Shown piece after piece: positions 3,435 to 55,600 of a stretch of 64,000 bases of DNA (position 1 is its first letter; every line of letters starts with the position of its first letter). A program made the translations under genes and the position numbers. The notes beneath the pieces are model-generated. The model ran no database searches. It was given only the letters and a program-made list of their open reading frames with translations, and had not been told where the DNA came from. Origin of the DNA: a virus. The DNA lies in the IMG/VR virus record IMGVR_UViG_3300042291_000666, positions 54,326 to 118,325 of that record, one strand, 5' to 3'.

Positions 3435-5051
3435 ATGGCAACTCCAGTATTAAATAATGGGATTTTCCTAAGAGACACTAGCTACAAAGCAAGTTCTCAT
3501 GTTGATTCTTATCACTTGACTCAGATGCTAGGTTCAGCAGAACCTATGGATATGGGACCAATTGATTTATGGGCAATGACTCAAAAAGTTGAAATGCCTC
3601 TTTATCAAATGGCATCATTTGGTGGAAAGAATACTATCATGGTAGACAATGCTCGTGGTGAGTACAAATGGCAAACTCCTATTGCACAAGATCTTCCATA
3701 CATTGTGGCAGACATTGAACCAGCTAATGCCGCTAAAGGTGTAGATGGAACAACATTCAAAATTAAAATTTCTAAAAGAACATTTGGACATGGTGATATC
3801 ATCACTTATGACAAATACAATGGATTAGAACTTTACATCACAGCTGATGATATCATCCCTGCTGGTGACGGTTTTATCTATACTGTTCAATTAGTAAACA
3901 ACAACAACGTAGCTAGCTTAGACAATAAGTATTTAGCTAAAGGTACTAAGTTCTTCAGAAAAGGTTCTGCAAGAGGTGAGTACGGAGAAAGATTCTCTGA
4001 CATTGAAACAGGTTCTGGTTTCCGTGAGTTCTACAACTTTGTAGGAGGAGCTGAAGCACACGTACACTATTCTATTTCTAGCCGTGCTGATCTTATGATT
4101 AAAGGTGGTTTGAATGCAGATGGTACTGTACCTGTAACTGAAATCTGGAGAAACTTTGGTGCAAACAATGATCCTGCTGTACCTAGTATTGAAGGATTAA
4201 TTGCTAACATGGGTAAAGCTGGTGCAAGAGAAGCATTTGAAAATGGTTCATTGACTAGAACATTTATCACTAACATGGAAGCTGCGCATTTATCAAAAAT
4301 TGCTTCTGACATTGAAACTTACTTAATGTGGGGTAAAGGTGGTAGAATCAAACAAGATGGTCCAGATGATATTAGATTATCTGTGGGATTATGGGCACAG
4401 TTGGATAACTCATTCAAAAGAGTTTACAACAAGTCTTCTTTCACACTTGATATGTTTAAATCTGAATTGTATAACTTCTACCAAGGTAAAGTTGAGTTCA
4501 AAGGTCCAGATCCACAAAGATCACTTGTTGTTCAAACAGGTATTGGTGGTATGCAATTGATCAACAAAGCTATTGCTGATGAAGTATATGGTTCTGGTTT
4601 AGTACAAAATGCTAGTGATATTGGAGCTGTTAAAGGTTCTGGAATGGATCTAGATTATGGATTTGCTTACACTTCATTTACTATTCCTTTCTTAGCTAAC
4701 GTTAAGTTTGTATTGAACCCTGCGTTTGATAACTTGAATACTAATGATATTGAGAATCCATTAATTGATGGCCGTCCATTAAGTTCTTATAGCTTCATTA
4801 TCTTTGACGTAACAGATGAAGGAAATGATAACATCCATTTATTGAAATTATCTTGGGATAATCAATTGAAATGGTTCTACCAAAATGGAACTATGGATTA
4901 TATGGGAAGAACTCAAGGTTTTGCATCTACTGGTAACTTCAACGGATACCGTGTAATGATGTCACAAACTATGCCTGCTATTTGGGTTAAGGATCCAACT
5001 AAAGTTTTAAAAATTGTTATGAGAAACCCTATTACTGGTGGTTCATTCTAA
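3435..5051 (+). CDS. Major capsid protein
   Basis: The protein has 538 residues, in the size range of HK97-fold capsid proteins of crAss-like phages. It lies two genes after the portal and resembles the crAss capsid family: an N-terminal arm with YHLTQMLGSAEPMDMGPID, a central alpha/beta core, and a C-terminal stretch ending VLKIVMRNPITGGSF. Arm residues around 30-90 would correspond to the N-arm and E-loop that lock neighbouring subunits; this is inferred from the fold, not seen. It has its own A-rich leader and is followed by a GC-rich structured element ending in T8, consistent with a separately tuned, abundant transcript. The minus-strand and +1 open frames inside it are shadows. Confidence 0.9.
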   Translation: MATPVLNNGIFLRDTSYKASSHVDSYHLTQMLGSAEPMDMGPIDLWAMTQKVEMPLYQMASFGGKNTIMVDNARGEYKWQTPIAQDLPYIVADIEPANAAKGVDGTTFKIKISKRTFGHGDIITYDKYNGLELYITADDIIPAGDGFIYTVQLVNNNNVASLDNKYLAKGTKFFRKGSARGEYGERFSDIETGSGFREFYNFVGGAEAHVHYSISSRADLMIKGGLNADGTVPVTEIWRNFGANNDPAVPSIEGLIANMGKAGAREAFENGSLTRTFITNMEAAHLSKIASDIETYLMWGKGGRIKQDGPDDIRLSVGLWAQLDNSFKRVYNKSSFTLDMFKSELYNFYQGKVEFKGPDPQRSLVVQTGIGGMQLINKAIADEVYGSGLVQNASDIGAVKGSGMDLDYGFAYTSFTIPFLANVKFVLNPAFDNLNTNDIENPLIDGRPLSSYSFIIFDVTDEGNDNIHLLKLSWDNQLKWFYQNGTMDYMGRTQGFASTGNFNGYRVMMSQTMPAIWVKDPTKVLKIVMRNPITGGSF

Positions 5052-5060
5052 CAAAAGAAA

Positions 5061-5213
5061 TTGTTAAGCTCCGCACCTCAGCTCTGGCCCTTCGGGGTCA
5101 TCTGGGGGGCGTCTTAGCAATACTGTGATAGGTTGGCCCATATCTCTATTCTGTGTGCATTGACAAGGGATGTCTAGCATGCTGGGGCCAGCTGATTCAC
5201 TTTATTTTTTTTA
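5061..5213 (+). ncRNA. GC-rich structured RNA candidate downstream of the major capsid gene
   Basis: This 140-base stretch is roughly 50% G+C by eye inside otherwise very AT-rich DNA, and no reading frame explains it. Domain 1 is one long hairpin: 5061-5068 pairs 5113-5120, 5072-5074 pairs 5109-5111, 5076-5081 pairs 5102-5107, and 5086-5090 pairs 5095-5099, closed by a C(UUCG)G tetraloop. Domain 2: 5125-5128 pairs 5197-5200, 5131-5139 pairs 5185-5193 (GGCCC/GGGCC core), 5157-5160 pairs 5179-5182, and 5162-5165 pairs 5171-5174. Domain 2 is followed by TTTATTTTTTTT, so the 3' end may form by intrinsic termination. It resembles no tRNA or riboswitch that I recognise. The pairing was read by hand; strand and function are inferred. 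Confidence 0.6.
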
Positions 5214-5235: not shown

Positions 5236-5436
5236 ATGGCACTAGATATAAAAAAAGCAAACAAAACATATGAGTTTTCAAACTCAAATGTTTCTCAAAT
5301 TATTGCTTCAAAAGCTGTAGGTAAAGATATATTAGATAGAAATTATGCTGATAATGTTGCAGCAAAAGCAGCAGGATTAGGTAATGGAGATTTATATCAT
5401 ACGGCAGGAGTATTAAAAATTGTTTACGCGGCTTAA
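5236..5436 (+). CDS. Small capsid-associated (auxiliary/decoration) protein
   Basis: A 66-residue protein between the major capsid gene and the rest of the head module. Its last 25 residues (AAGLGNGDLYHTAGVLKIVY) match a short C-terminal motif found in many small phage virion proteins, usually decoration or head-fibre-base proteins. The N-terminal half is helical and polar. Position and the tail motif suggest an auxiliary capsid protein in high copy. Its start follows the structured RNA element by only 22 bases, so that element may control its expression. There is no membrane segment and no cysteine. Confidence 0.6.
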   Translation: MALDIKKANKTYEFSNSNVSQIIASKAVGKDILDRNYADNVAAKAAGLGNGDLYHTAGVLKIVYAA

Positions 5437-5472: not shown

Positions 5473-5496
5473 TAGAAATATTAATAATAATAAATT

Positions 5497-5517
5497 GTAC
5501 ATAATTATGTACTTTTG
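5497..5517 (+). promoter_or_regulatory. Candidate Bacteroidota-type promoter with a 16-base palindrome
   Basis: TACTTTTG (5510-5517) is an exact match to the Bacteroidota -7 box TAnnTTTG and lies 44 bases before ATG 5562. It overlaps a perfect palindrome, GTACATAATTATGTAC (5497-5512), which could be an operator. No clear -33 TTG box is present at the right distance. Confidence 0.35.
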
Positions 5518-5561: not shown

Positions 5562-6578
5562 ATGAATGATTACACAATTGTAGAAAAGTATCAGCAAACA
5601 AAGAATCAAACTATTGCTATACGCCCTTATTTTAACTCTTCAAAAGAGAACATGGGTTTAGAGCATTACGGATTAGCTTTGCATGATGGAGTATTTCATG
5701 AAGAAACATTAGCTTGTTTAGAAATGAATGGGGTTAAACGTTATGTTACAGGATTAAATGAATTTGCTCCTGATGTAAAAATGTTAGCTCCAAAAGAAAA
5801 AGAAGCAAAGATCAAAGAAATTAGAAAAGTTGTTTCTCAATTAGAAGCTGAATTAGCTGCTAATGTTGTTGCTGTTGATGATAAAGATTTTTGGAACAAG
5901 CTTACAGTAATGAAGCCTGATAATTCAAAATTTTGGGATAAGATTAGTTTAAGATGTGGTAATGATCCTGTGTTTTTAGATCCAGATAAAGATCCTTATG
6001 ACTTAATTAAATTACATGCTATTCATGCAGGAGGTTTTTCTATTGTAGCAAAATCATTAAGAGAAGCAAGAGAATCAGGTAATCCACCTAAATTCTATCT
6101 TGATACAATGGAAGAAACATTAAGTACTAGAACAGAACTTAGTAAATTAAAAAATAAAGCATTGGTTGAACTACAAAAAATGTATGATTCAAATGCTTCA
6201 AAATTAATGTATGTTGCTAAAATCTGTGATGCTGATAGTGTACAGTATGTTAAAAATACACCTAATGATATTCTTTATGAAAACATGGATGAATATATTC
6301 ATGGTAATGGTGCTGAGTCTTCTAAGAAAAGAGCAGCTTCACAATTTATAGAAGTGTCAGGGTTATCAATGGAAGAATTAAAAATTAGAGCTTTAATTAA
6401 AGACTCTTTATATTATAGATTTATTACTACTAAAGCTGGAGGTTGGATTGAACCAATTGACAGTGGAATTAGATTGGGTAAGTCACCATCTGAATGTCTG
6501 GAATTTTTAAAGAATCCAGAGAATGAAGAAACATTGATGTCATTACTTAATAAAGTAGAGCCATACTGGAACTCCTAA
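5562..6578 (+). CDS. Conserved virion-associated protein of unknown function
   Basis: This 338-residue protein has no motif I can name. It is soluble-looking, with a Lys/Glu-rich helix around residues 85-105 and a largely helical C-terminal half. One pair of Cys (residue 137 region and CDADS) does not form a metal site. Position between capsid and head-to-tail adaptor genes, and the same strand and spacing as its neighbours, suggest a head or neck structural protein or an assembly factor. It starts a unit of three closely spaced genes (10-base and 2-base gaps) that includes the adaptor candidate and the Dps-like protein. A candidate TAnnTTTG promoter and palindrome lie upstream. Confidence 0.5.
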   Translation: MNDYTIVEKYQQTKNQTIAIRPYFNSSKENMGLEHYGLALHDGVFHEETLACLEMNGVKRYVTGLNEFAPDVKMLAPKEKEAKIKEIRKVVSQLEAELAANVVAVDDKDFWNKLTVMKPDNSKFWDKISLRCGNDPVFLDPDKDPYDLIKLHAIHAGGFSIVAKSLREARESGNPPKFYLDTMEETLSTRTELSKLKNKALVELQKMYDSNASKLMYVAKICDADSVQYVKNTPNDILYENMDEYIHGNGAESSKKRAASQFIEVSGLSMEELKIRALIKDSLYYRFITTKAGGWIEPIDSGIRLGKSPSECLEFLKNPENEETLMSLLNKVEPYWNS

Positions 6579-18634: not shown

Positions 18635-18637
18635 ACC

Positions 18638-18726
18638 CTCTATACATAAATATTTTATAAAAAATTTTATAACTGAACTTTTCTTGTTTGGTTATAAAAT
18701 TTTTTGTATATTATAATTGTATAGAG
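18638..18726 (+). terminator. Nested hairpin, AT-rich terminator
   Basis: The inner stem AAAAAATTTTATAAC (18659-18673) pairs perfectly with 18691-18705 over 15 base pairs, ending in a T run. An outer 9-base-pair stem, CTCTATACA (18638-18646) with TGTATAGAG (18718-18726), encloses it. The two stems compete with or stabilise each other around the promoter-like motif at 18703. Confidence 0.65.
18703..18712 (+). promoter_or_regulatory. Shared AT-rich promoter-like motif TTTGTATATT (second copy)
   Basis: It is identical to 9462-9471 and 35465-35474. It overlaps the end of the hairpin and lies 51 bases before ATG 18764. Confidence 0.35.
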
Positions 18727-18763
18727 CACAACAAACTATTACATTATAGTAAAAAAAATATTT

Positions 18764-21499: not shown

Positions 21500-21552
21500 C
21501 ATTAAAAAAAACAACAATAGTGGCGGTTTGTTGGTTTTCTGTCACAGGCGTT

Positions 21553-21590
21553 GAAAGAGGCTGGGGTAACTCAGTCTCTTTTTTTTTAAA
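21553..21590 (+). terminator. Strong terminator with GUAA tetraloop
   Basis: AGAGGCTGGG (21556-21565) pairs CTCAGTCTCT with two G-U pairs and a GNRA-type GTAA loop, followed by T9. A smaller stem (CAACAA with TTGTTG, in 21510-21535) precedes it. Confidence 0.9.
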
Positions 21591-21651
21591 TAAACCTGTA
21601 ATATTATAATAAAATTTTTACATTTACATAATTAATTTTAAAAAAGATTCT

Positions 21652-25124: not shown

Positions 25125-28100
25125 ATGGCACAGCAAAATGAAAATCCTGGGACATCTTCCGTAAATACTAATTCATTCATAAAAGGAATGAATAAAGATA
25201 TTACGCAAGCAATGGAACCAAAAGAAAGTTGGTGGCATGCACGTAATGCTATGAACAATTCTACTGATGGTGACCTTGGTGTAATTGGCAATGAACCTTC
25301 AAATTTACAATGTGGTGTAATACCATATACAATTATTGGGGCTATACATAGATTTGGTGACCAATGGGTTGTGTATTCTACTGATGATGTAAATTCAGAA
25401 ATTGGAACATTTGATGATAGTCAATGTAAATATGAAGTTATTGTAAATGATCCTTGTTTAAATTTTAATAGAAAGTATTTAATAACTGGTGCAGCAAAAG
25501 AAAATTTTGATTGTACTTGGCAAGTATATTGGGATGATGGAAACAATCCTTCACGTTCATTAAACATTAATAAAGTACCATGGATCAGAACTATATCATC
25601 TGCACCTGGTGATCCATGTATTACATATAATGATACAACACAATTAAATTGTGAAAAAATAAGATTAGCTCCTTTGGTTGATACACCTTGTGTTACGTTA
25701 AGTAAATCAATTGATGGTGGTATGTTACAAAATGGAGCATATCAAGCATTCATTGCTTATATTGAAACTGAACAAAAGGTAACTGATTATATTGGTATTT
25801 CTAATGTTCAAACATTATGGTCACATTCTGGTACAGGAGGTTCATTAAATATTACAGTAAGTAATTTAGATAAAGATTATGATTACTATGAGTTAGTATT
25901 ACTTGTAAGAAATCAAGGTCAAATATATGCTAAACGTATAGGTAGTTATAGTACACAACAACAAGATATTAATATTGATTATATTGATGATACATTAGTA
26001 GCTGTAAGTTTAAAGACAATTCCTCAAAGAAGTCCTGCTTATGAAAAATCAAATGCAATGTATGTTGTAAATGATTGGTTAATTAGACAAGGACCTGTAA
26101 GTCAGTTTGATTTTAACTATCAACCAATAGCAAATGATATCAAAGTTAATTGGGTATCAAATCAAATAGATTCTAGTTATTATCATTTAGGTGGTAATAA
26201 GTTGGGATTTTTAAGAGATGAACAATATGCATTCTTTATTAGATGGATTTATAATACAGGAGAGAGATCTTCTTCATATCATATTCCAGGAAGAGCACCA
26301 AGGCCATTTGCAACCCCTTCAGGGACATTTCTAGAAACAGATGTTATATACGGTAATAATGTTTTAGATTCTGCAGGAGACCCTTTATTTAAGGTTTATA
26401 ATACAGGAACAATTACATCATCTAATTTAACAGAAGTTCAACCAGATGGTTCATTAATTATTGCTAGAGGTGATATGGCATATTGGGAATCAACAGAAAG
26501 ATATCCTGCTAATAGACCTGAGATTTGGGGTGACCTTTGTGGAAAACCAATTAGACACCATAAGTTCCCTACTGAAGAAGTAGGGGGTGCAAATTCACCA
26601 TTGCATATAAGTACAACAGCAGGAGATTTAATTAATGTTCTAGGTGTTGAGTTTACAAATATTGGAAGACCAAAATATAATGACGGAACTTATATAACAA
26701 ATGTAGTTGGTTATGAAATATTAAGAGGATCTAGAGGTGGTGCTAAATCTATTTTAGCAAAAGGATTATTTAGAAATATGCGTAAGTATACTATACCTAA
26801 TGCAGAAAATCTAATAGGTGGATCTGTTCAAGGTTTATATCCTAACTATCCGTACAATGATTTAAGACCTGATGTTTATTTTCATGATGGTAATGCTAAT
26901 AGTATTCATAGAACAGAAGGTTGTGATAACTATAGTCAATCAATGGGTAGTTTTAGACCATTGGGTGCAGCTCCTGCTATAGCTGGTGATCCGTCTGGAT
27001 ATTCAAAAAAAGTATTTACTTTTTCATCTCCAGATCTAATGTTTACTAAACCATTTCTGAATGCATATGAAACTAGAATTTATGGATATTTAACTGGTAA
27101 TCAATCAGGTTATTTTAAAGCATCAGAAGATCATCCTCAATTTAAATTATTAAGAAATGGTGCAGCAATAATGGCTGCAATTGTAGGTTTAGGTTATGCT
27201 GTGGCTCAAGTTCAAGGTGATAGAGGAAGTTCAAGATCATCAGGAACTTCAGGTAATTATATGGCAAATGATTTTTATTTGGGTTTTGGTACAGGTGGTA
27301 CAACAGGTCTTGGTGCAAGTGCTGCAGCAAATGCAGTTGGAGCTGGAATTAATGCCGGTTTAATTGCTACACTTTCAAGTGTATATGAAAATGTTGACAA
27401 TGGTGTAGCTTTAGCTGATTTATGGGTAGGTGGCTCAGGAATGGAATTTGCAAATCAATTATTTTCTACAGCTGCCCTTACAGTAGGTATAGCACCTGCG
27501 GGTTCAGGTGGTGAATATATAATCAATACTAATAAAAATACACCACTTTCTCAATTGCCTGGTGTGTTTAGAGCTATAGTTGCATTGTTTACAACAGCAT
27601 CTAACATTGCTATTGGTGGAAATGAAATAGTAGAATTAATTTATAACTTGGTTAATAAATCTGATTTTGTATTAAAATATAATTCAGCAGGTTTCTTTAA
27701 TGCATTTACAAAAATCAATACAGGATTGTTTAGAATTAAAAATACAGATTCAAATTATCTAGGTCAATCTTTTCAAAGTTTTGATAATGGAAATTACAAG
27801 ATAAATAATTTATTTAGACCTACTACGGTAGCAGTTTCTTTAAGTGATCCTATAGCAGAACCAAGTGTAGTTGATAGATCAAGATTTACAGTTGGTGGGG
27901 ATATGAATGCAAATTTAACTGTTAATGTTTATTCTGGTGATTATTTAACTAACCCATCAGAAAAACAAATAAGACCTATATCTGCTTATTATGGAGCTCT
28001 TAAATTTAATTTTGATAATCAGTATGGTCAACTAGATGGTATTAAACAAGTTCAAATGAGAGGTTGTGTAGAATACTTAGATCCTACTAAACCGGATGCA

Positions 28101-31100
28101 TTTAAATATTCTAGTTCAGCTATATTTGGTGGTGATATATTTATTACTAGATATACTGAAAAAGTTATAATGCCAATATTTGCACAATACTTATTAGGAC
28201 AACCTGATGAATTTACATATGATTATTCTCAACATGTTAATATACCTTATCCAAGATTTTGGTTAAATTCCCAAAAGTTTGATATGAGTAAATTAAGTAG
28301 AGAGATAGCATCTTTTGGTGCAATCAGTGGTAGTGATTTAGATGCATTGTTACCTAATGATTTATTTTACTTAGATAGAGGTGGTGATAGTTGTAATAAC
28401 TTTATCAATAGTATTGTTAACAATAGTGATCCTAATCCAATGTTTGCTATGAGATTTGCATATATGTATTCTCATTCAAATGGTATGTTAGATTTCTTTG
28501 TAGAATCTGAAGTTAATCTAGCTAATAGAGATTGGGAAGATAGACAAGATGCTAGAATATATGATGTATACAGTTATAATGATATTGATGAATTATTTCA
28601 TGCTCAGATTGAAAAGAAAGATAATTTTTATAAGTATGATGAATCATTAAGCCCATCTAAATTTGTAACACAGTTGGGTAGCTTTGGTGAGATTCAACCA
28701 AGATACTATGATCCATATACTGCAGAAAATTGTTATGTTAGTTATCCAAAAAGATTAATCTATTCATTGCAAGCACAAAAAGAATCTAAGAAAGATTTTT
28801 GGAGAGTGTTTTTGCCATTTAATTATCAAGACTTTAAAAACAAAGTAAGTGTAATTAAACCTATTAATAAGAATGGTGCACTTATATTTTTCCCATATCT
28901 ATCTCCACAAATGTTTCAGGGAATTGATACTTTAAAAACATCTTTAGATACTAAACTTACTATTGGTGATGGAGGTTTATTTAGCCAACCATTTCAAAAT
29001 GTTGTTAATTCAGATTTGTCAAATGAGTATGGTTCATGTGAAAGTTTAAGAAGTGTTATGAATACACCAGTAGGTTTGTTTTTTATATCTCAAGCTCAAG
29101 GTAAGATATTCCACTTTACTGGTCAAAATTTAGATCCAATATCTAATGCAGGAATGAAATGGTGGTTTAATAAATATCTACCATCTCAATTGGTTAAACA
29201 ATATCCTGGATTAGAAGATTCACCATTATCAGATAATCCTGTAGTAGGTGTAGGTTGTCAAACAATCTATGATCCTAATGATGATATAGTTTACTTTATG
29301 AAGAAAGACTATAGAGTTAAAGCTTCATATATTGCTGATGTTACATATACTGAAAAAAGAGGATTTGCTTTATCAGGAAATCCTATTACATTGGGAGATC
29401 CAATATTCTTTGATGATTGTTCTTGGACTGTAAGTTATGATCCTAAATCTAAAGCTTGGATATCATTCCATGATTGGCATCCAGAATTTGCATTGCCAAG
29501 TATTAACCATTTCTTTACTACTAAGACTATAGCTACTACTATTCCACAATGTCCTCCAGGTTATAATTTTAATTCTACTAATGGGTTATGTGAAAGATCA
29601 ATAAATATTAATGAGCCGGCTATTGTTACAGTAGATGAAATCAATTCTGTTGTTAATGGTGGACCAGTTAATTGTTTAATAGATATTGTTATTGCAATGG
29701 ATACATCTGGATCAACTAATTCAGGAGGACGCAGACAAGCACAATTAGCATGGTTAAATGCATTTTTAAGTGATTCTAATATAACTGCACCAATGGCAGC
29801 AGGAACAATGCAGATAGGTTTTACATCATGGGGTAGTGGTAATATAAATTATAATATACCTAATCCAGCTGGAGGTACTTGGTCAATGAGCAATACAGTA
29901 ACTCCAACGCAAGTTGCTGCTTGGTATAATGCTAATTGGACAGGTGGCGGTACTAATGTTTCTTTAGGTATGACTTCTGGTCAAACATTGTTAAATAATA
30001 AAGCAGCTAGTCAATTAGGTAATAGAAGTGCACAACCATTTTTTAGACAAATAATTATATTAGTTACAGATACAACAAGTGATCCTGGAAATATTGGTTG
30101 TCCATTTCAAGGTACTGGTGTTTCACCAAGTGCAACTGGTCCAGCAAATCAAAGAGTATATGCATTATTTTGTGGTGCAACTAGTGCTATACCAACTGGT
30201 AATGTATTAGGTAATATATCTTGTACACCGGGCCCTGTAAATGTTGATGGATACCAATTTGGAATTAATGCATCTGTGCCTGCAACTTTTGCTACTGTAG
30301 CAACAGCTATTGCTGGGTCTGTTTGTTCAATTCCATTTGTTTGTACTTGTGCTCCAGGTTATACAAAAGTATTTTTTAATCCAGCAACTAGTGTTTATAC
30401 ATCACCAACAGGTGTATGTGATAATATTACACCACCTGTATGTAGAAAAGTAACTTGTGCATGTCCAACATCTCCTCCGGGAAGTGTTACAACTACAACT
30501 GGTAATTGTGATGATGTTTATTTAATAGGTAATCCAACCTATGTGAATCCAAATCCTCAGATTTGTAATTTCTTTAAATATGAATCTACACCAGCTAATT
30601 ATAAAGTTGGTTCATTCTGGAGACATAATGTTAGATGTGATAGTTTTGCTAATTTCTATGGTACTGATTATCCATGGGAAGTAGAATTGGTTTCTAATAC
30701 TGGACAAATGGTTAATACTGTTAGAAGTATGGAGTATCAATTAGAAAGTTATGTGTACAAAGGAGATATGGGATTTGCTTGTAATGATGACAGATGGGAA
30801 GATTTAAACTTTAACTTTGATCAATCAATCATTTATAATAATGAGCAAGTATCTGGGTTACTACAATTAACTCCTACACCATATAACAATCCTATATTGG
30901 AGTTAAGTTATCCTATTATCACTACAAATAGCATAAATATATTATGTTCTAAAGTAGAACAAAAATATAGATTCAATCAATTTTATGACATTACTAATGA
31001 TAGAGGTGAATTTACAAATGCTGAACAGGCAATCTGGGATACACAGCCTAATGGATATATTAAAGTTTTAAATACTATAAACTTAAATTATAACAAACCT

Positions 31101-31223
31101 CCATTACAGCATAAGAAGTTTAGACATTATTATAATAATGTTATTTTAAGAAGAGTTAAATCAGAAAATAGAAAGATGTTATTGAGATTGAATAACACTA
31201 AATTACTTTTATCAATGAGATAA
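25125..31223 (+). CDS. Giant tail (muzzle/stabilisation) protein with an inserted von Willebrand A domain
   Basis: The protein has 2032 residues. The N-terminal 150 residues (SFIKGMNKDITQAMEPKE, then WWHARNAMN) are those of the crAss-like stabilisation or muzzle proteins, related to T7 gp12 / P22 gp10 tail nozzles. About residues 1515-1760 are an insertion with a complete MIDAS: Asp1526, Ser1528, Ser1530 (DTSGS), Thr1610 (GGTNVSLG) and Asp1649 (LVTDTTSD). This would bind a divalent metal and a ligand, as in von Willebrand A adhesion domains. Cys-rich EGF-like words flank it (CPPGYNFNSTNGLCERS before; CTCAPGYTKV, then CACPTSPPGS after). The tail-body sequence then resumes to the end. The next gene overlaps by one base. 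Confidence 0.8.
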   Translation: MAQQNENPGTSSVNTNSFIKGMNKDITQAMEPKESWWHARNAMNNSTDGDLGVIGNEPSNLQCGVIPYTIIGAIHRFGDQWVVYSTDDVNSEIGTFDDSQCKYEVIVNDPCLNFNRKYLITGAAKENFDCTWQVYWDDGNNPSRSLNINKVPWIRTISSAPGDPCITYNDTTQLNCEKIRLAPLVDTPCVTLSKSIDGGMLQNGAYQAFIAYIETEQKVTDYIGISNVQTLWSHSGTGGSLNITVSNLDKDYDYYELVLLVRNQGQIYAKRIGSYSTQQQDINIDYIDDTLVAVSLKTIPQRSPAYEKSNAMYVVNDWLIRQGPVSQFDFNYQPIANDIKVNWVSNQIDSSYYHLGGNKLGFLRDEQYAFFIRWIYNTGERSSSYHIPGRAPRPFATPSGTFLETDVIYGNNVLDSAGDPLFKVYNTGTITSSNLTEVQPDGSLIIARGDMAYWESTERYPANRPEIWGDLCGKPIRHHKFPTEEVGGANSPLHISTTAGDLINVLGVEFTNIGRPKYNDGTYITNVVGYEILRGSRGGAKSILAKGLFRNMRKYTIPNAENLIGGSVQGLYPNYPYNDLRPDVYFHDGNANSIHRTEGCDNYSQSMGSFRPLGAAPAIAGDPSGYSKKVFTFSSPDLMFTKPFLNAYETRIYGYLTGNQSGYFKASEDHPQFKLLRNGAAIMAAIVGLGYAVAQVQGDRGSSRSSGTSGNYMANDFYLGFGTGGTTGLGASAAANAVGAGINAGLIATLSSVYENVDNGVALADLWVGGSGMEFANQLFSTAALTVGIAPAGSGGEYIINTNKNTPLSQLPGVFRAIVALFTTASNIAIGGNEIVELIYNLVNKSDFVLKYNSAGFFNAFTKINTGLFRIKNTDSNYLGQSFQSFDNGNYKINNLFRPTTVAVSLSDPIAEPSVVDRSRFTVGGDMNANLTVNVYSGDYLTNPSEKQIRPISAYYGALKFNFDNQYGQLDGIKQVQMRGCVEYLDPTKPDAFKYSSSAIFGGDIFITRYTEKVIMPIFAQYLLGQPDEFTYDYSQHVNIPYPRFWLNSQKFDMSKLSREIASFGAISGSDLDALLPNDLFYLDRGGDSCNNFINSIVNNSDPNPMFAMRFAYMYSHSNGMLDFFVESEVNLANRDWEDRQDARIYDVYSYNDIDELFHAQIEKKDNFYKYDESLSPSKFVTQLGSFGEIQPRYYDPYTAENCYVSYPKRLIYSLQAQKESKKDFWRVFLPFNYQDFKNKVSVIKPINKNGALIFFPYLSPQMFQGIDTLKTSLDTKLTIGDGGLFSQPFQNVVNSDLSNEYGSCESLRSVMNTPVGLFFISQAQGKIFHFTGQNLDPISNAGMKWWFNKYLPSQLVKQYPGLEDSPLSDNPVVGVGCQTIYDPNDDIVYFMKKDYRVKASYIADVTYTEKRGFALSGNPITLGDPIFFDDCSWTVSYDPKSKAWISFHDWHPEFALPSINHFFTTKTIATTIPQCPPGYNFNSTNGLCERSININEPAIVTVDEINSVVNGGPVNCLIDIVIAMDTSGSTNSGGRRQAQLAWLNAFLSDSNITAPMAAGTMQIGFTSWGSGNINYNIPNPAGGTWSMSNTVTPTQVAAWYNANWTGGGTNVSLGMTSGQTLLNNKAASQLGNRSAQPFFRQIIILVTDTTSDPGNIGCPFQGTGVSPSATGPANQRVYALFCGATSAIPTGNVLGNISCTPGPVNVDGYQFGINASVPATFATVATAIAGSVCSIPFVCTCAPGYTKVFFNPATSVYTSPTGVCDNITPPVCRKVTCACPTSPPGSVTTTTGNCDDVYLIGNPTYVNPNPQICNFFKYESTPANYKVGSFWRHNVRCDSFANFYGTDYPWEVELVSNTGQMVNTVRSMEYQLESYVYKGDMGFACNDDRWEDLNFNFDQSIIYNNEQVSGLLQLTPTPYNNPILELSYPIITTNSINILCSKVEQKYRFNQFYDITNDRGEFTNAEQAIWDTQPNGYIKVLNTINLNYNKPPLQHKKFRHYYNNVILRRVKSENRKMLLRLNNTKLLLSMR

Positions 31224-43607: not shown

Positions 43608-46600
43608 ATGGAAAATCAAGTTCAAAATAACAGTTTAGATCAAACAATTATAAACAATCAAGTTTCAGAAGATGTTATCCCAAAAGATAATTCATTTGAA
43701 TCTGTAAAAGAAATGTTCAATACTCCAGTAAATGATATTCTCATGAGCAAAATGGATGTTGCTGCATTTGAACAACTTGATTTATTGAAACCAATGATTG
43801 ATGCTACTGGTATGAGATCAAATGGAAATGGTGCTGCAAGAAGACCTACATTAGCTACTAATACATTTGACCCTGTTCTTCAACAAAATCCACCTAATAT
43901 AAATGAACCAGGTGGGATTCAAAGAATGATGGAACAAAAAGTAAAAACTGGTTTCCAACAACGTCAAGCTAATAGAGCTCCTGGAACTGGTATTGCATCT
44001 CCTACTTTTTCAAGTATGCAACAAACTAACTTTAAACGTTATTATGAGCATCCTGAATTTCAAACTTTAGGATGGAAACCATATGCAGATAATGAAGCTT
44101 ACTATAACGCTAACTCAACCATCTATGATGATATGAGTAGAATGTGGGGTCAGTTTGGAAGTTTAGTTGGAACTGGATTTATGAGTGGTTATAGAGCAAT
44201 TGGTGACATGGTTACTGGAGGATCTAATGTTGTTGATTTAAAATCTGCAAATGAATTTGAAGAAGCAATGGCTATTGGTAGTTCAAGTAGAGAAGGCGGT
44301 ATGGCTTGGACTAATAATCTTTTATTAAATTCTGGATATACAGTTGGTATTATTAGTTCTATTGCTTTAGAAGAAGTTGCATTAGCTGCTTTAGAAGTAG
44401 GAACATTTGGTGGAGCTACACCACTTGTAGCTGGAAGAACAACTCTTAATGCAGCAAGACTTGCTGAAGCTGTGGGTAGAGCAACTACTGTTGGAAGAAT
44501 GGCTAGTTCTGGAAGAACAATGATGAATACTTTAAAAGGTATTGATACAGCAAAAGATTTTTGGCAAGCTAGTAAACTTGGAGGTAAAGCTGTTGCTTCA
44601 ATATTTGCTCCAGGAACTATAGCTGCTGTTAATAGATTACATACTACAGAAGTAGTAGCTCAAAATCTAAACAATTTAGCTAAAGCTTCTGAATATGCAG
44701 GAGCATTTTATAGAGATGTTAGAGCTTTAAATTTAGCATTATCAGAAAGTAAACTTGAAGCTGGTATGGTCTTTAATCAAATGATGAAAGATGGTATGAA
44801 TATTAAGTATGCTGAAAATAATGGTGGTTCAGTTACATCAGAACAAATGTCTGATATTGCAAACAATGCACATAAAGCAGCATTTGCAACTGAGATGTGG
44901 AATATGCCTGCTATATTTTTAACAAACAAATTAGTTTTAGGTAATTCATTAGGTGGATTTAATAAATCATTGGGTAGAATATTCAATGAACAAGCATCTG
45001 GTGTTGGAAATAGAATTATTAAAACTGCACAAACTGTTGGTAAAGATGGTATAAAAGCATTATCTCCATTTAAAGATGCTGGTACAGGACTTAAAGGATT
45101 GGCTACAACAATTGCTAATGCAGGAGTAAAAGGTAATATAACAAAATTAGGTCAGGGTTCATTAAGATATTTTGCAGCTAACTTAGGTGAAGGTATACAA
45201 GAACTTTCTCAAGAAGCTATTTCTGTAGGTACTAAGAATTATTATACATCTGTATTAAAAGATCCAATGAATGGGGGTCCTGAATTATATAAAGCATCTG
45301 TCAATGCTGGATTAGGTTCACAACTTTCTGCTCAAGGTTTTGATACATTTATGTCAGGATTTTTAATGGGTGGTGTAGTATCTGGACCACAAAAGTTATT
45401 TTTCCAAGGTGTACCTGCTTTATATCAAAGAGTTTCTAATCCAGAAAAATTTGCTCAGTATAAACAAGATAGAACTGATTATATAAAAAAAGTAGTTGAT
45501 ACATATAATGCAGTTTGGAATGCGCAAGCAGAAGATCCAAATTCAATTTTTGATGCAAAAAGATTTAACTTTTTACAACAAAAAGCAGCAGCAGAATATA
45601 AAACATTATCTGCTTTTGCTATGGATAGATTTTATTTTACTGATGAAACTGACTTTGCTAAATTTAACCAAATACATACTGTATTAAGTACAGGTGGTGC
45701 TGCTTTATTTCAAGATCAATTAGCTGATTATATGAAAATGTCTGACCAAGATTTAGCTGAAGCTTTTCCTTCAAGTAAAGCAGATGTTAAAAATGGAAAG
45801 ATAAGAGAGCGTCTTCAAAGCATGATTAATCAAATTGATAGCACTGAAGAAATATATCAAAAATCAAAAGATAGAAATCCAAATCCATTTACACCTGATT
45901 CATATGAAAAAGGTTCAAGAGAATGGCAACAAGAATCAATAAAGAAAATTGCATTTGAACATGCAAGATATCTTTATATGTTTACTCAAGATGGATTTAC
46001 TAGAGCATTAGAAAGATCAAATAGTATATTTCAAAATTTAGCCACTGAACCATTGTTTGATAAAATGGCAGCTAATGATTTAACTGTATTGTTAGATGAA
46101 AGATCTATTGATAATGAGATACAAATGTTAATGCAAGAAGCTGACATTTTATCTCAAGATAAAGCTAATGATAGTAAAGTAAAAGATAAAACTGAAAAAG
46201 TTAAAAGATTATTATCATTTAAAATTGTATTATCAGAAAATCAAAATAAAGATGGTTCTTTTGATAAAAGAAAAATCAATTTACTTAGAAAAGAATTTGA
46301 AAGCTATGTTAAACATATGGCTGAAGCATCAGGTACATTTGTAAATAAAGATGCTGTTGATGATGCTTTAAAACAAATTATAGATTATACTGCATTAAAA
46401 GGTAGAGCTAAAATGTATGATAAGGCAATTGAATATTTAAATAACCCTGAAAAGTTTAATGAAGTATTTGAAAGAAGTGCTGAAGTAATACAAGATGAAT
46501 TTAAAAATAGAAAGAAAAGATTTGAAGAGCAGGTCCTTGCTTATACTGATGTAATAGAAAGAAATGAGTTAGCTAATCAAATTGCAAAAGCCGGATTTAT

Positions 46601-49600
46601 TCCTGCTAATGATGAAATGAAAATGTTTTTAGAAACTGGGGATACTAAATATCTTAAAACATTTTATAATCAAAAAGGTGAAGTATTAGATTCACGTGAT
46701 AAATTAGACTTAGAAGAAATTCAAGCATTGCTAAATACTTATGAGCAAACTAGACCTGATAAAAAAGTTGAGGAAGATGTTAAGGATGAAGAAGAAATTG
46801 CTGAAGAAGGTAGAGCTGATATAGATGATATATTAGTAACTGCCGGAGTAACTACTGAAGTATCAGTTAAAAACTCAAGTCTTTTAGATAATGCTATTAA
46901 AAAAGCATATGATAAATATTCAGCTATGGAAACAAGAGCTGGAAAGAAACCTATGTCTTTAGAAAATTGGATTACGGGTGATGGTGGTAAAAATCTTAGA
47001 GCTACATTTATTGCAGTTAAAAGAATCTGGGTAGAAAATGATTTGCTTATAAACCCAAATAACCCACTTACAGAACAAGAAATTGAAAATGAAACTAAGT
47101 TTTTACCTTGGTTACAAAGTCAAGAAGGTAAAACAAATGATTTAGTTCAAGCTGTAGTTAATGCTGTTGGATTAACTATTGAAGATATTACAGGTCAAGT
47201 TGAATTGTTACCTGCACAAGGTGAAAATATTGAGGGAAATGAAAATGCTACCGTTGTTGAAAAAGGAGAGGTCATTTCATTAATTGAATTAAATACAGTT
47301 GATCCAGACGGAAATACTTTTAAATCATATCAATTAGTTGATCAATATAAACAACCATTAGATGAAGAAACATTAACTAGATATGATATTCCTACATTAG
47401 GAATATATGATGAAGCCAGTAAAGCTGAAGGTATTAAAATGCAAAAAGCATTAAATGATTTAATTCCTGATAGTACTAAATTTACTTTTGCTGGTGCAAC
47501 TTTAAATTATGGACAACTTATTTATGATAAGACAGGTCTAGAATTTATTATATTAAGTGACCCTAAACAAATTAAAAAAGATGGTAAATTATTAATAATT
47601 CCATCTAATGAAATTAGTCCAATAATTAAAGAAACTGAAAGATCTACTCAACCTATTACAGCTAAAGAGTTTACTAATTCTTTTAGTGTTCAGGATTTAA
47701 ATGTTAAACTATTACCTAGCAATGTAGCTAGACTAAATATCAATGAACCTATTCAACCATATCCTTATAGAAATAAAGATGCTGGAACTGATGATTGGTC
47801 AGAAACTAATGAACAAGCAATAGCAAGATATAATTTAATTATGTCAGTGTTAACGCCAGAAGAAGTAAGCGGTTTAGAATTAGTTGTTTCTGCAGATCCA
47901 GAAGGTGGAACAGAAGGCCCTCTTCTATTTATTCCGGGTAGTAAAGAAGCAAATCCTTATATACAAACAGTAAGAGCAAAGTATTCTGTAGGAATAAGAA
48001 TTGCTAATCCTGCGGTTCAAGCTAAAGTTGATGCTATTGTAGAAAAAATGGGATTAACTAAAAGTACTTCTACAAATGGTGTTTTTGCATTTATGCAAAA
48101 CAATAACTTTGTAATTACAAATTCTCAAGGTACTGTTATTGATCCAGTCAATATGACAATGGATGAATATAAAAATATAATTTACATTCCAGAAGGAATG
48201 GTTAAAAATCCTGAAACAGATTTAAAGCGTGCTCAAGATAACTTTGCTTTAAATAATGTATTGAGTGCAGCATTACCTGGTTTAGTAGCTAAGTATCCAA
48301 ATGGTATTATACCAATGAGTGAATTACCTAATGGTTTATCTTTTGTATATAAAGAAGCTGTAATGATGTATGACAAATCACCAAAGTCATTGACTGATTT
48401 ACAATTTAATGCTGCTGATATAAACGGTAACTATTTAATTTATCAATCAGAAATAGTTAGAGATGAAGACGGTAAGCCTGTCAAACCTTTTCAAAGAACT
48501 AAAATAGCTATATCAAACCTTGAAGGTCAAGCAAGAAGACAACTTATAAATGAGGTTGAAGCAAACTTAAGTGAAGAAGATTTAGCCAAACTTGTTAGTG
48601 GCCAAGATGCATATAATGCAATTGTATTAATGCCTGATGGCAAATATAAAGTGGTTAACTTAAAAGCTAAATCTATTGATAAAGCAAGTTTGATAGAAAA
48701 GTTTACAGCAATAATTAATAAAGCTCAATTAACATTAACTGAAAATCCAGAAAAATCTGATTCTTTCAATAAGAATGCTAATTCTGATTACAATCAAAAC
48801 TTAGCTAATGAGATATTTGTTAGTACAAAAAATGGTTATAAAATTTCTCTTCAAGTTAGTCCTTGGGGTAAAATAGAATTAGATTTATATGATACTGTTA
48901 ACAAGAAAAAATTAGGTGTTGTTAGATTAAAACCAACTGCAAAGGCATCTGTTGATGAGCAACTTAAAACTTTGTTAGATGATTTTAATGCATTGCCTGG
49001 AGTTATAGATGCAGGAATAAAGATTACTCCTGAAAACTTTAGAGAAAGTTTTCCAAGAGATATATCTGCTAAAGACTTAATTGAAAAAACAACAACTGAG
49101 GTTGCACCTAAAGTTGCATCTAATAGTAAAATTGAATTGTCTGGAGATTCTTCTGCTATTCAAACTGCTGTAAATATACCTATATCAACACAAGGTACAT
49201 TTACACCAACAGAAACATTTACAGATGCCCAAGGAAATTCTATTCCTAAAGGTCCTGAATTGACAACAGCTGCAACACCTGAAGAGGTAGCGGATAATGT
49301 TAATGCAGATAATATTAATCCTGAAGACATTAATATAGATGAGATTAATTTATTAAGAAATGCTGTTAGGTTAAGTAATTTAGAAGATGTTAAACAACAA
49401 TTAGAAACTCTTAAAGCAAAACTTACGGAAGGATTAGTTGGAGCAGCTAAAATTAAAGCTGTTAAAGAAAGCAAAGAATACGCAGATCTTTTGGCTAAAA
49501 GAAAGAAATTAGAAAGTGAAGCTAACAAAGTAGTTTCTGTTCAAGATGCTATTGTTGATGCTGAAGATATTGATGTATTTACAGAATGGGCAGCTGCAAG

Positions 49601-52600
49601 TCTTCCAGAGTTTATATCAATAGAAGATATTGAGACTTTAGGTAATAACCTTAAAGCTGGAGGAGTGCGCGTTGGTGCATTTGTATTAGGTCTTAATAAT
49701 ATAGGTGGAGGATTAACTGTTAATGGAACATTATTTACAGGAGCCAAATCTCCATTTAAATATCATGAAGCATTTCACGGTGTATTTAGAATGTTATTAA
49801 CTGATGCAGAAATTAAAAAATATTTAGCTATTGCTAGAAAAGAAGTAAGAGCTAAGTTAAGAGCAGAAGGTAAAAGCTTTGAAGCTGAATTACAAAGATT
49901 CAAAAACTCAGCTGATACTTATTCTAACATGAGCCGTGAAAGATTAGAACAAGAATACTATGAAGAATATTTAGCTGATGAATTTGAGAAATTTAAAGCA
50001 AACGCAAAGTCAACTCAAACAGATTCTTCTGTTAAGTCTTTATTCACTAGAATTATGGAGTGGATTAAATCTGTATTCAACTCCTTTACTAAGAATCAAT
50101 TACTTACTTTATATGAAAACATTGATGCAGGTAAGTTTAAAACAGCGTCAATAACTTCAAATCAGTTTGTCAATAGTTTGATGACAGGTATATCATTAGA
50201 AGCTAATGCATTAATACCATATGATACTGAACAAAATGCCAACAACAAAGTTGGATACTATTTCTTAGATAGTGTTATTGCTGAACCTTTGGTTTCAGGA
50301 ATAGCTGCTATGTATATACAAGAAATTGCAAAAGTAAAAGATCCTAATGTAAAACGTGGAGATATACTTGATAATGTTATAAATGATTTTGCTGCTTTAT
50401 ATGATGAAGAAAGTGAGTCAAATCAAAATCTTTCAGATGACCAGAAAAAATTCTTACCTCAAATAAGTGAGGTGTTCTATAATTTTTCTGATGAGTTAAA
50501 AGCTGAAGTATTTAAAGTATTGAATATTATAACTAAACAAACTCAAGAAGAAGAATACAATAATGAATACTTTGAAGAGCAGGTAGGTTTAAGAAACACA
50601 GAACAATACAACATGGATGCGTCTATGATTGGTGGTTTTGGATCTTTATCTGAAGGTCTAAGAAGTTATTTAGCTACAACAACAATAGCAGAAACTGATT
50701 ACTTTGGTAACAAAGAATTAAAGCCTGGAGTAAAATTAATTGTTCCTATAAACTTTGTATCTGCTTATAATGGATTATTAAAAGCTGTTAAGAATATTGA
50801 AGATCCTAAAAAGATGTTACAGAACATGTACTTCTTTGGATTAGATAATCCACAGACTGGTGCAGTTGTAACAAGATTATTACAAGATTTTGGTTTATCT
50901 GTAGAAACATTATTAGAGCCAGGTCCATTACCTACTAAGATTAAAAATGCTGCTTTATTCCAATCTGTTGTAAAAGGATTTACAACATTTAGAGTTGATT
51001 ACTTATTTGTACAAAGAGATGATGCTGGTGCAGTATTGATTTATTCAGCTGCTGAAAGAGATGATATTAATTCACAATTAGAATCATGGTCTCAAGCTTG
51101 GGGACAAGCTGAAAAGAAAATTAAAGCAGATCCAAAAGTTAGAAAAGAAACTCTTGATACATTAGAAGATTTTGCAAGTTATTTGCAACCTAGTGATAAA
51201 ATAATTTCTGATGCTGAATTGACAGAATTATCTTCTCAATATTCCCAAGATATCTTTAGACTTACAGGTATTAAACTAAGTAAACAATTTATTGTATTTA
51301 GTATTGCATCATCAAGAAATAACCCTACACCAATGCAGGCAGCATTAATAAATGCTTATTCTGAACAAACTCCTGTGAATTATAATGATATGCTTGAAAT
51401 AAATAAATTAATTCAAGATGGTAGTGATTTATTTAGTGAAGGAAAAAAAGGTGCTGAGTCTAGAATTAAAAAATTAGCAATTCAAAATGCTGCTTTTGAT
51501 GAAACAATTGGAGCATCTGTATTTAAAAACCCTGAAGGTAACTTAGTATATGCACATCAATTACCTACATTCCATTTAAAAAGAATACAAGAGTTAAATG
51601 ATGTAGCTGAATTAGAACGTCTTAAAGAATCTGATCCATACTTAGCAAATAACTTCCTTTTAAATAGTGAAGCTTTTTTACAAATGTCTGCAGAAAACAG
51701 ACAAAAAGTTTTAAGAATAGCTGGAAGTAGTGTTGGTAAAATAAACAATACAGAAGAAGAACTCAATGATAAAATTTCTGGAGTATCTAATAAATCAACT
51801 TATGGTAACTATACACCACAAGAATTTACATTAAGCATACTTAATACATATACAGCATTATTAAATACTAAAAGTAACAAGGTTGAATATGTAGAATATT
51901 TTGATAATAAACTTAATAAAAATGTTAGGTCTGCATTAGCACCAGTATTACTTAGAGTGTTAGAAGCATCTAACACAGGTGATTTGATGTATCTACCTGT
52001 AATTAAAGCTGTTAAGTTTGAAAAAGCAGGTGGTGGTAAAGTTGTTTTAACTGATGAAACTGTAAACATTTTTGTTGATAATATCAAGAATGAATATAAT
52101 AGAATTACAAGAGAATCAAATCCTGAGACTAGAACTGAAGAAACTCAACTTGGATACAATACTGAAAATGGTAGAGCATTTAAGTTGACAAACACAGGTT
52201 TATTTGTTACTCCTGATTTAAAAGCTTCATTGGAAACTATTGCTACCCGTGAAAATGCTCCTTCATTTGAAGAAGCTTTAAAAGAATTAAACATTACTGA
52301 TAACAAATTTAGATCTATAGTAAATCAACAATTAGAAAATCAATATGATAAATTTTCTAAAGGTTTAAATGATTTACAAATAGAAGATCAATTAAGTAAA
52401 AGTATAACAGAAGGATTAGCTGTTGATAAAAAGGGAGATAAAAATCTTATTGATTCAGCTGAACTACTTAATCTTACTTATGATAAAGAATATAACTTAA
52501 AACAAATATTTTTTAATGACTGGGTTAATACACTCTCTATAAATGAAGTTCTTTTAGGTGACCAGGCTGTAACATTAAAAGATGGAGTTGATGCCGTTAA

Positions 52601-55600
52601 AAGAGCTAAGATGCAGAATGCAGCATACTATAGTGCTTATAGTTCTATAATGGCTGAAGACATGGGTGTAATGCATACTGTTGATGATATTAGTTTAGTT
52701 GCTTTAGAGGAGCCAGTAGGAGTTTCTGCATTAACAGGGAAAAATATTGATAGATCAGATGCTCAAATGTGGATGACTACAAAAGCATTTAGATATATGT
52801 GGTTTGGATTTGGTAAACTTAATCCTGCTCAAGCAAAACTTATTGATAAAATAGAAGCTGGTGAAAAAATAACTTCTGAAGAATTGTTTGGTCAAGATGG
52901 TTATGTTGATATGGGTAGTATGCTTAACTCTAAAAAGTTAGTATATGGTGATGGTAAAACATTTATTAAAATGTCTGCCTTTGTATTGACACCTGAACTT
53001 ACATCTAATAAAGTAGTAGATGAGAATGGTAATGTAACTTGGGTTGCTAAAGAAACCAGATCTGAATTACATGATTTAAGAATGAAGCTTGAAGGCATTG
53101 AAGCTTTACCTGGAAAACAAACTTTAGGTATAGCCGCTCCATTGAGTGCATTGAAAATGCTTAAACAAAGAGTACAGACATTAAATAGAGTTGGTGAAGA
53201 TAAAGCATTTGAAGAAGGTGATTATACTACACTATCTGCAAAATACATGGGTCTTCAAGTATTAACACCTTCAAACAAGACAGAAGTTATTGATGCAACT
53301 CAAGTAAAGAATATTGTTACTTCAGAGCAAAAAGATGATGTTTTTGTAGAAGCTTTGGGAATGACTGTTGGTCAAATTAGAGCTGCATATAATCTTGCTA
53401 CCTCAACTAAAGTTGAATTAAAGTTTAAAAATAAAAGAAACTTAATTTTTAGTTTTGATAAAGGAATGCAAGAACTTGCAATTTCTAAAGAAAATAATAA
53501 ATTAACTCCTAACTTAACAGCATTCTTAAGATATGCTACAGAGGGTCTTAAAGCATCTCAAGCAAGTAGTAACTTGTTAGAGTTCTTTTCAACTCAAGAT
53601 GGAGAACAAAAGTATGATTTAAATAATCCTATTACCTTAAATAAATTTGAACAATTGTTTTTAAGTTATTTGAGTAAAGGTACACTTGCTGAAAAAGCAC
53701 CTGGTCATGCTGTAGCTTTAGTATCTGATTTTGGTACTAAGGTTTATAGAAGAGTATTCAGTGTAGATGAGAATGGTATTCCTGATAGATCTGAAGTTAT
53801 AAGAGAGAATGTTTGGAATAGTTTAGCTAACAAACCTGATATTATAGAATCAACTAATATAGGTGGTGAAAGATCTTGGAGTGGTATTAAAATTCCTAAA
53901 GAAGGTATTGTTGTACTTGACCGTTTAAGATCTGGTGTAAAAGAATATGATAAAGATGGTAAGTTTACAGGTGAAAGATATACTGAGATGCTTATGCCTG
54001 CTCATTTTAAATCTGTAATGGATTTAGTTGAAAACGCAAATGGTTCATTTCCTGATGTATTATCAAAAATGTTTGGTGTACGTATTCCATCTCAAGATAA
54101 TCATTCAACAATTAACATTAAACATGTTGATTTCTTGCCTGCATTCTATGGTTCATCTGCAATGTTTGCTCAAGAACTTATTGAGATATCAGGAGCGGAT
54201 TTTGATATTGATAAAGTTTACATGCAAATCAAAGAGTTCTATGAAGAGGGTGGGCAGTTTTATGAGTATGGTAAACAAACTACAGAAAACGGTAAGTATA
54301 CAGATTATTTAAAATATGTATCTGAAAAAGTTAAAGTATCAGGTACTACTTATGCTGAGGCAGTAGAGTTATATGACAAGGATGAGCAAGGTGCAACTAT
54401 TGAAAATTCTGTAACTGATGTAGAAGAAGAAATAGCTTCTGATGCTGGATTATCAGAAGATGGAATTAAAGCTTTAAAAATCTTAGGTTTACCTATTACA
54501 AAAGAACAATACTCAGAATATAAAAAGAAATTCCGTGAGCCATATGAAGCTCCAATGAACAATGCAATACTAGATTACAAGTATGCATTGATGGGTAATA
54601 CTGGTGTAACAGAAACAACAAATGAAAATGAAACACCAATTTCATATACAGCTGCTAGTTTGCAAATATTAACTGATGAATTAAAAGCATTAGAGCAATT
54701 ATTACCGGGGTTACTTGAACGTTCAAGAGAAGATGATATTGATATCAACAATATGATTGGTAAGATCAAAGCATTTACCAATAATAAAGGTGCTGCTATT
54801 GGAGCCATTGTATTACCTAACGTATACTTGAGTTTACTAACTGAGTATGGTATCAAAATAAATCCTGATGGTCCACAAATTACCATTAATGGTGTTACTT
54901 ATAATGACTTTGGTGTAACCAGAGAACAATTAGCAAATGGTTTAGAAGGATTGCGTAAGCAAGATATTATTTCAGCATTGATTACAATGGCTACAGATAA
55001 TGCTAAAGAACGTCTTGTTGCTAAACTTGGTTTAAATAAACATGCTCTTGGTGTGGTTGCTAACTTAACTGCTTTAGGTGTTCCTATTAAAACATCTTTA
55101 TTGTTGATTAACAATCCAATGATACAGGATATATATTCTCAAGCATTAAATAAAAAAAATAAGTTAGATCCAGGGGTTCCTACTTTAGTAGACAATATGA
55201 TAGTTGAGTTATTAGAAAAAACAAAAGCTATTAAAAAAGATGATCTAGAAAAAACATTAGCAAACATGGGTATAGATTTTACTACCTATGATGAAGTTAC
55301 TGATGCTTTCTTAATAGATGCGTTTAATAACCCGGAAGAAGTTACTGATAAAGAAAAAATTGCAATATTAAATTTATTTTCAAATGCTGTAAAAGTTAAA
55401 GACTTTACAAGTAATATGTCAGCTATTGCTGGTTTAACAAATGGATTAGGAAAAGATATCTCAGCAGTTAATGAAAAAGCTTTACAAATAGATAAACTAT
55501 TTGATGAAAAAGCAATGATGGATTTAAAACCAATATACAAAAGCAATACTTGGCAATCAAAATATCTTGATATATTTAATCAAATTAAAAATGAATTGTT

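Follow-up and report, generated by a model that had tools for sequence, protein, structure and literature searches.

What does an elaborate RNA do when it stands directly behind the major capsid gene of a phage? A phage has to produce its capsid protein in large excess over the rest of the virion proteins, and gene control has been little studied in the crAss-like phages, which are among the most abundant viruses known. The question is raised here by a GC-rich, apparently structured block of a crAss-like phage genome.

Genomic setting

The record comprises 118,325 nt in total (31% GC), of which the final 64 kb are here called the window; all coordinates refer to it. The structured block sits between the gene for the major capsid protein (3435..5051, + strand, 538 aa; PHROG phrog_11589 major head protein, E 3e-31), just downstream of which it had been placed by a preliminary description made from the sequence alone, and a 66-codon ORF (5236..5436, + strand) that starts 23 nt past the end of a U-tract. 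Many relatives retain this ORF, preceded there by a plain terminator, and searches of PHROG and Pfam gave no match for its product. In tblastn the capsid gene also matched the csAss phage capsid and structural proteins from Cellulophaga phage phi4:1; these matches, together with portal and capsid PHROGs and a muzzle protein (Pfam crAss_MUZ, 25125-31223, E 7e-28), place the phage among the crAss-like phages, as judged by homology. Of the named phages, Leptolyngbya phage Lbo-JY46 gave the highest-ranking tblastn match, at 28% identity.

Several other features of the window were noted. A single ORF of 4502 codons occupies positions 43608-57116 and is followed by an ORF of 1930 codons with a PD-(D/E)XK nuclease domain. 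An AT-rich long hairpin of >30 bp lies between two genes at 18635-18763 and is very strong (z -8.4), and the structured spacer at 21500-21651 consists of a hairpin and then a textbook terminator, AGAGGCUGGGGUAACUCAGUCUCUUUUUUUUU (z -3.3). At 5494-5516, upstream of the gene at 5562, the string TTG...TACTTTTG resembles the Bacteroidota promoter consensus, which is TTTG/TAnnTTTG; a similar string is also found in relative L013, where the gene at 5236 is absent.

Composition and predicted fold of the block

The block was described beforehand as GC-rich within AT-rich DNA, and the two highest GC values among all 150-nt windows of the record (0.48 and 0.47, against 31% overall) do both fall on it. 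Its 150-nt windows are also among the most stable, at -49.9 and -48.3 kcal/mol against a record mean of -24.7. On the + strand the whole spacer folds to -61.6 kcal/mol (z -4.0, with 0 of 200 shuffles as good), and on the - strand to -37.0 kcal/mol (z -0.3). One strand alone folds well because 7 of the 47 predicted pairs in the element are G-U, and this is a sign of structure at the level of RNA rather than of DNA.

The predicted fold agrees with the two domains that had been drawn by hand. Domain 1 (5060..5121, + strand) is predicted as a hairpin of 24 bp, close to the 23 or so counted by hand, with three internal loops, the expected C(UUCG)G tetraloop and an outer stem AUUGUUAAG/CUUAGCAAU; a near-perfect 9-bp inverted repeat terminates it at both ends. 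Its folding energy is -32.1 kcal/mol on the + strand (z -5.1) and -17.9 kcal/mol on the reverse strand (z -2.0), and it carries most of the folding signal of the spacer (z -5.1 versus -2.2 for domain 2). Domain 2 (5125..5200, + strand) is predicted to have a closing stem of 4 bp (GUGA/UCAC), a 9-bp core stem that begins with GGUUGGCCC at 5131-5139, a single-stranded linker at 5140-5153 and an inner two-part hairpin, as in the hand-drawn model of a GC core, an inner hairpin and a closing stem at the U-tract; with a z of -2.2, against -0.7 on the reverse strand, its fold of -29.5 kcal/mol by itself only modestly beats shuffled sequence. The U-tract UUUAUUUUUUUU (5201..5212, + strand) is flush with this closing stem and matches the U-tract of the relatives' terminator. 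A possible linker-loop pseudoknot (5141..5170, + strand), in which linker UCUCU would pair with the AGGGA loop at 5166-5170, is suggestive only: the complementarity of 5-8 nt has p 0.05-0.4 against shuffled or random linkers, and there is a long inner helix to span.

Searches for coding content and homologues

No reading frame of the block accounts for it when the frames are checked, in agreement with the preliminary description. Nor does any Rfam family match it: none of the Rfam 15 covariance models, including that of Mu-gpT-DE, reached its gathering score anywhere in the window, and relaxing the search to E<=10 gave nothing credible for the element, the top sub-threshold match being to a bare UUCG hairpin (PhotoRC-I, 10.7 bits versus a cut-off of 45). 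A tRNA search of the window found none. Known self-cleaving ribozymes were rejected for want of an Rfam match. An attC-like recombination site was rejected too: a GTTRRRY-like string is present, but by eye the outward-facing pair of core boxes is absent.

Homologues of the element were sought by blastn among phages, plasmids, its own record and the records of 50 relatives, with nothing beyond chance, in sets that may lack the closest kin of the record to which the window belongs. Exact, gapped and partly degenerate patterns likewise gave no match beyond chance in viral contigs and genome contigs, in scans that were exact or semi-degenerate and that a homologue of 70-85% identity in viral contigs could escape. 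Two matches were rejected as homologues: a 21-mer in L335, where the similarity is confined to 21 nt beside what appears by eye to be a 23S rRNA gene, and a match in L082 that falls within a reading frame. The sequence is a single known example (n=1, one contig), and a literature search for structured RNAs behind the capsid gene in crAss-like phages yielded nothing.

Replacement of the terminator hairpin

The six nearest relatives (L001-L006) have 92-95% DNA identity to the window across several kb on either side of the block, and capsid proteins 98-100% identical to that of the window. Their blastn alignments stop at 5054, 3 nt beyond the capsid stop codon, and restart at 5206, 5229 or 5236; the alignment of L001 restarts at 5206, within the U-tract, and those of some more distant relatives restart at 5197-5205. 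The segment without homology to the nearest relatives (5055..5205, + strand) stands in place of their terminator hairpin of ~25 nt: in a slot of ~70 nt, the six carry a single hairpin, GGGAGG...CCTCCC, followed by T6-8, and a GGGAGG..CCTCCC-TTTTTT slot was found in nearly all of the 80 nearest relatives. The leader past the U-tract in the window resembles that of relatives with the plain terminator.

Since homology stops at 5054 and restarts in the U-tract, the terminator hairpin has been exchanged, whereas the U-tract was either kept or regained. In the capsid tree the window stands alone as a 'complex' tip, surrounded by 'plain' ones (nearest L001-L006, then L007-L014), and the exchange is therefore recent. 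The block has thus replaced the terminator hairpin of the capsid gene in a single, recent event and is joined to a retained U-tract. The ancestral hairpin of ~25 nt gave way to a structure of ~145 nt within about 5% DNA divergence.

Alternatively, the block might be foreign DNA of recent arrival, such as a mobile palindromic fragment, under no selection except that termination must stay intact; or it might be a chimera of assembly. Either would fit a GC content far above that of the genome, a single occurrence with no homologue and a recent origin, and the near-perfect 9-bp inverted repeat that bounds domain 1. A DNA palindrome, however, would not give the asymmetry between the RNA strand (-61.6) and its complement (-37.0); the boundary of the insert lies exactly where the closing stem meets the U-tract, there is no sign of a repeat or transposon, and structured spacers of equal GC richness recur in relatives. 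Both flanks, moreover, match one phage lineage. Together these two origins are considered unlikely, although with a single copy selective neutrality is still conceivable and they are the foremost of the competing accounts.

The exchange also bears on the idea, put forward in the preliminary description, of a free or packaged RNA like the pRNA of phi29, which would be cut from the capsid transcript as a separate molecule and act in trans or be packaged. The compact shape of the RNA, its two domains and length of about 145 nt and a 3' end that is possibly defined would suit this role, but six relatives with near-identical capsid protein carry the short terminator only, so that no packaging step of the lineage needs the element, and promoter evidence at its 5' end is no better than chance (28 promoter-like sites in the region versus 36.6 expected). 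The idea found no support and is regarded as very improbable.

The capsid 3' slot in other relatives

Relatives were collected by capsid protein (80), around a more distant member (80) and by a DNA pattern of the conserved capsid C-terminus (120), which gave 209 distinct downstream sequences, of which 191 were measured together with the window (192). A stem adjoins a T-run in 154 of the 192 measured spacers, and Cellulophaga phage phi4:1 also has a hairpin and T-run after its capsid gene. About 20 of the surveyed relatives (about a tenth) have other large structured RNAs in the slot, in spacers of 115-267 nt whose folding energies range from -32 to -81 kcal/mol and whose z lies between about -3.5 and -8, mostly without a T-run and unrelated in sequence to the window element; in L326, L281 and L300 a plain hairpin stands ahead of a second domain. 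The complex state occurs in 22 of 178 tree rows, and a parsimony count on one FastTree tree, with no support analysis and with a few labels set by hand, requires 11 or more switches from plain to complex or back. The preliminary description had looked to the corresponding gaps of related genomes to judge the element, and they point both ways: close relatives have no such element, whereas distant ones have unrelated structured elements, some of them clearly covarying.

Three groups were recognised among these RNAs. Group A (L077, L242, L253, L254 and L312) has spacers of ~200 nt that form several hairpins and share a conserved segment, CUCCUGAGA...ACGUGGUUCAGGAGCUU, within which GCAAC can, by eye, pair with a downstream GUUGC in a possible H-type pseudoknot. 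Group B (L218, L221, L236, L258, L269, L320, L325 and probably L244) has multi-hairpin spacers of up to 267 nt, with an upstream hairpin around GAUAGUAUC, a core like that of group C and an extra hairpin with GAUCA in its loop; 5 of 18 pairs show compensatory changes, and by eye L218, L221 and L244 have GCA/UGC where other members have GCG/CGC. Group C (L141, L182, L302, L313, L324, L326, L328, L334, L272 and L330) is an element of ~45 nt with a closing stem, an RUNCGU linker and a hairpin with a YUCGYAA loop set against the 3' strand; it follows the plain terminator in L326, and in L272 and L330 it lies at another structural gene, just upstream of its start.

In the group C alignment of ten sequences, 96.9% of cells pair and 9 of 16 pairs show compensatory changes, and sliding the partners by one column reduces pairing to 42%. 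In a linker-loop pseudoknot of 3 bp the outer pair is G-C, replaced by A-U in two of the ten. The aligned sequences were selected by motif, and the invariant loop and lower hairpin are partly an effect of this selection; the closing stem is independent evidence because it lies outside the search pattern. Groups B and C have no match in Rfam, and probes from groups A and B matched no named phage. Group C, with its strong covariation, is an apparently undescribed pseudoknotted RNA element that is absent from Rfam 15, and the covarying elements of the relatives are a directly testable RNA family outside that collection.

In L184 and L189, the capsid 3' spacer has a second domain with GGTTCGATCC that looks like a tRNA acceptor and T-arm; it is perhaps a degenerate tRNA or a tRNA mimic, and it has no match in Rfam.

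Because two related groups show compensatory base changes, the slot recurrently acquires real structured RNAs; relatives carry large structured RNAs there independently of one another, and structure in the slot can be under selection. A more tentative extension, less likely than not, is that in this crAss-like clade the slot would be a hot spot in which plain terminators are repeatedly swapped for elaborate RNAs, including at least one undescribed pseudoknotted family (B/C), that all work by a common principle, such as exonuclease-resistant ends or factor-controlled termination setting the ratio of capsid to tail protein, with the window element as a convergent newcomer.

A proposed role at the 3' end of the capsid transcript

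The favoured reading, to which we give a probability of about 60%, is that the element is an elaborate intrinsic terminator that also protects the 3' end of the capsid mRNA. As RNA polymerase transcribes the capsid gene, domain 1 would fold immediately behind it, and domain 2 would fold as the polymerase meets the U-tract, where the closing stem flush with UUUAUUUUUUUU would end most transcripts while a fraction reads through to the 66-aa gene and further downstream. With its compact 3' end of two domains, the abundant capsid mRNA would then be guarded against 3' exonucleases. Position, U-tract and flush closing stem give support to the predicted termination; read-through and stabilisation of the capsid mRNA are inferred. 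The most economical account is that the element took over the job of the part that it replaced, ending the capsid transcript, and that its large structure also protects the 3' end.

Of the functions first suggested, the '3' stabiliser or partial terminator' is thus the one predicted here, since relatives have a plain intrinsic terminator in the exact slot and the homologous U-tract is joined to the element. Against a terminator count the stem at the U-tract, which has only 4 bp, and the complex elements of relatives, which are mostly without a T-run and need not be terminators.

Control of the 66-residue gene had also been suggested, and the element could be a cis-acting 5' structure on read-through transcripts that controls decay or translation of this gene and of later structural genes. 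The start of the ORF only 23 nt past the U-tract agrees with this, as does the frequent position of group C after a plain terminator (L326) or before the start of a structural gene (L272, L330). Yet the window element lies ahead of its U-tract rather than behind it and does not belong to group C, and the same leader and gene follow the plain terminator in the nearest relatives. This role is possible but not favoured, and we rate it slightly below an origin as foreign DNA or a chimera.

Returning to the terminator with 3' protection, the window and L001-L006 are near-isogenic, with the same capsid protein behind which stands either a 145-nt structure or a plain terminator, a natural experiment that addresses what an elaborate RNA after a capsid gene does.

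Comparison with known and neighbouring systems

Mu-gpT-DE, a structured RNA of Rfam located behind the capsid gene of Mu-like phages, resembles the window element, itself a candidate for a structured RNA, in following a capsid gene, but it belongs to a different phage group and its model does not match at gathering score or at E<=10. A pRNA of the phi29 type needs conservation in its lineage, whereas the window element is missing from relatives with 98-100% identical capsid.

Groups B and C share with the window element mostly the same genomic slot and, loosely, its layout: many have a hairpin upstream of a domain in which a closing stem and a linker lead to an inner hairpin set against the 3' strand. 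Unlike it, they are mostly without a U-tract, and their linker-loop pairing R-C-G/C-G-Y is absent from it. Local alignment of the window element to the structured spacers of relatives gave z of at most 1.1, and covariance model R1 of group C, run on the window with filters off, scored 2.8 bits at best (E 2.2). Because sequence and model fail to match, the likeness of layout is loose and the pairing is not significant, the window element is treated as an analogue of these groups and not as a member.

The nearest likeness in position is to the intrinsic terminator after the capsid gene of relatives and of phi4:1, which shares with the window element its hairpin and U-tract. The closing-stem UCAC ends at 5200 and the U-tract starts at 5201, as in a terminator, but the window element extends over ~145 nt and two domains where the plain terminator is a single hairpin of ~25 nt, and it is GC-rich and unrelated in sequence to the usual terminator of the lineage. 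Its terminal stem has 4 bp, is followed by an internal loop and connects imperfectly with the GC core; unlike the stem of a plain terminator, it encloses a large inner structure (44 nt), and a simple terminator scan skips the element as having too long a loop. By analogy with capsid-gene intrinsic terminators, the capsid gene may be set off from later genes by partial termination; in T7, T-phi is the terminator after gene 10.
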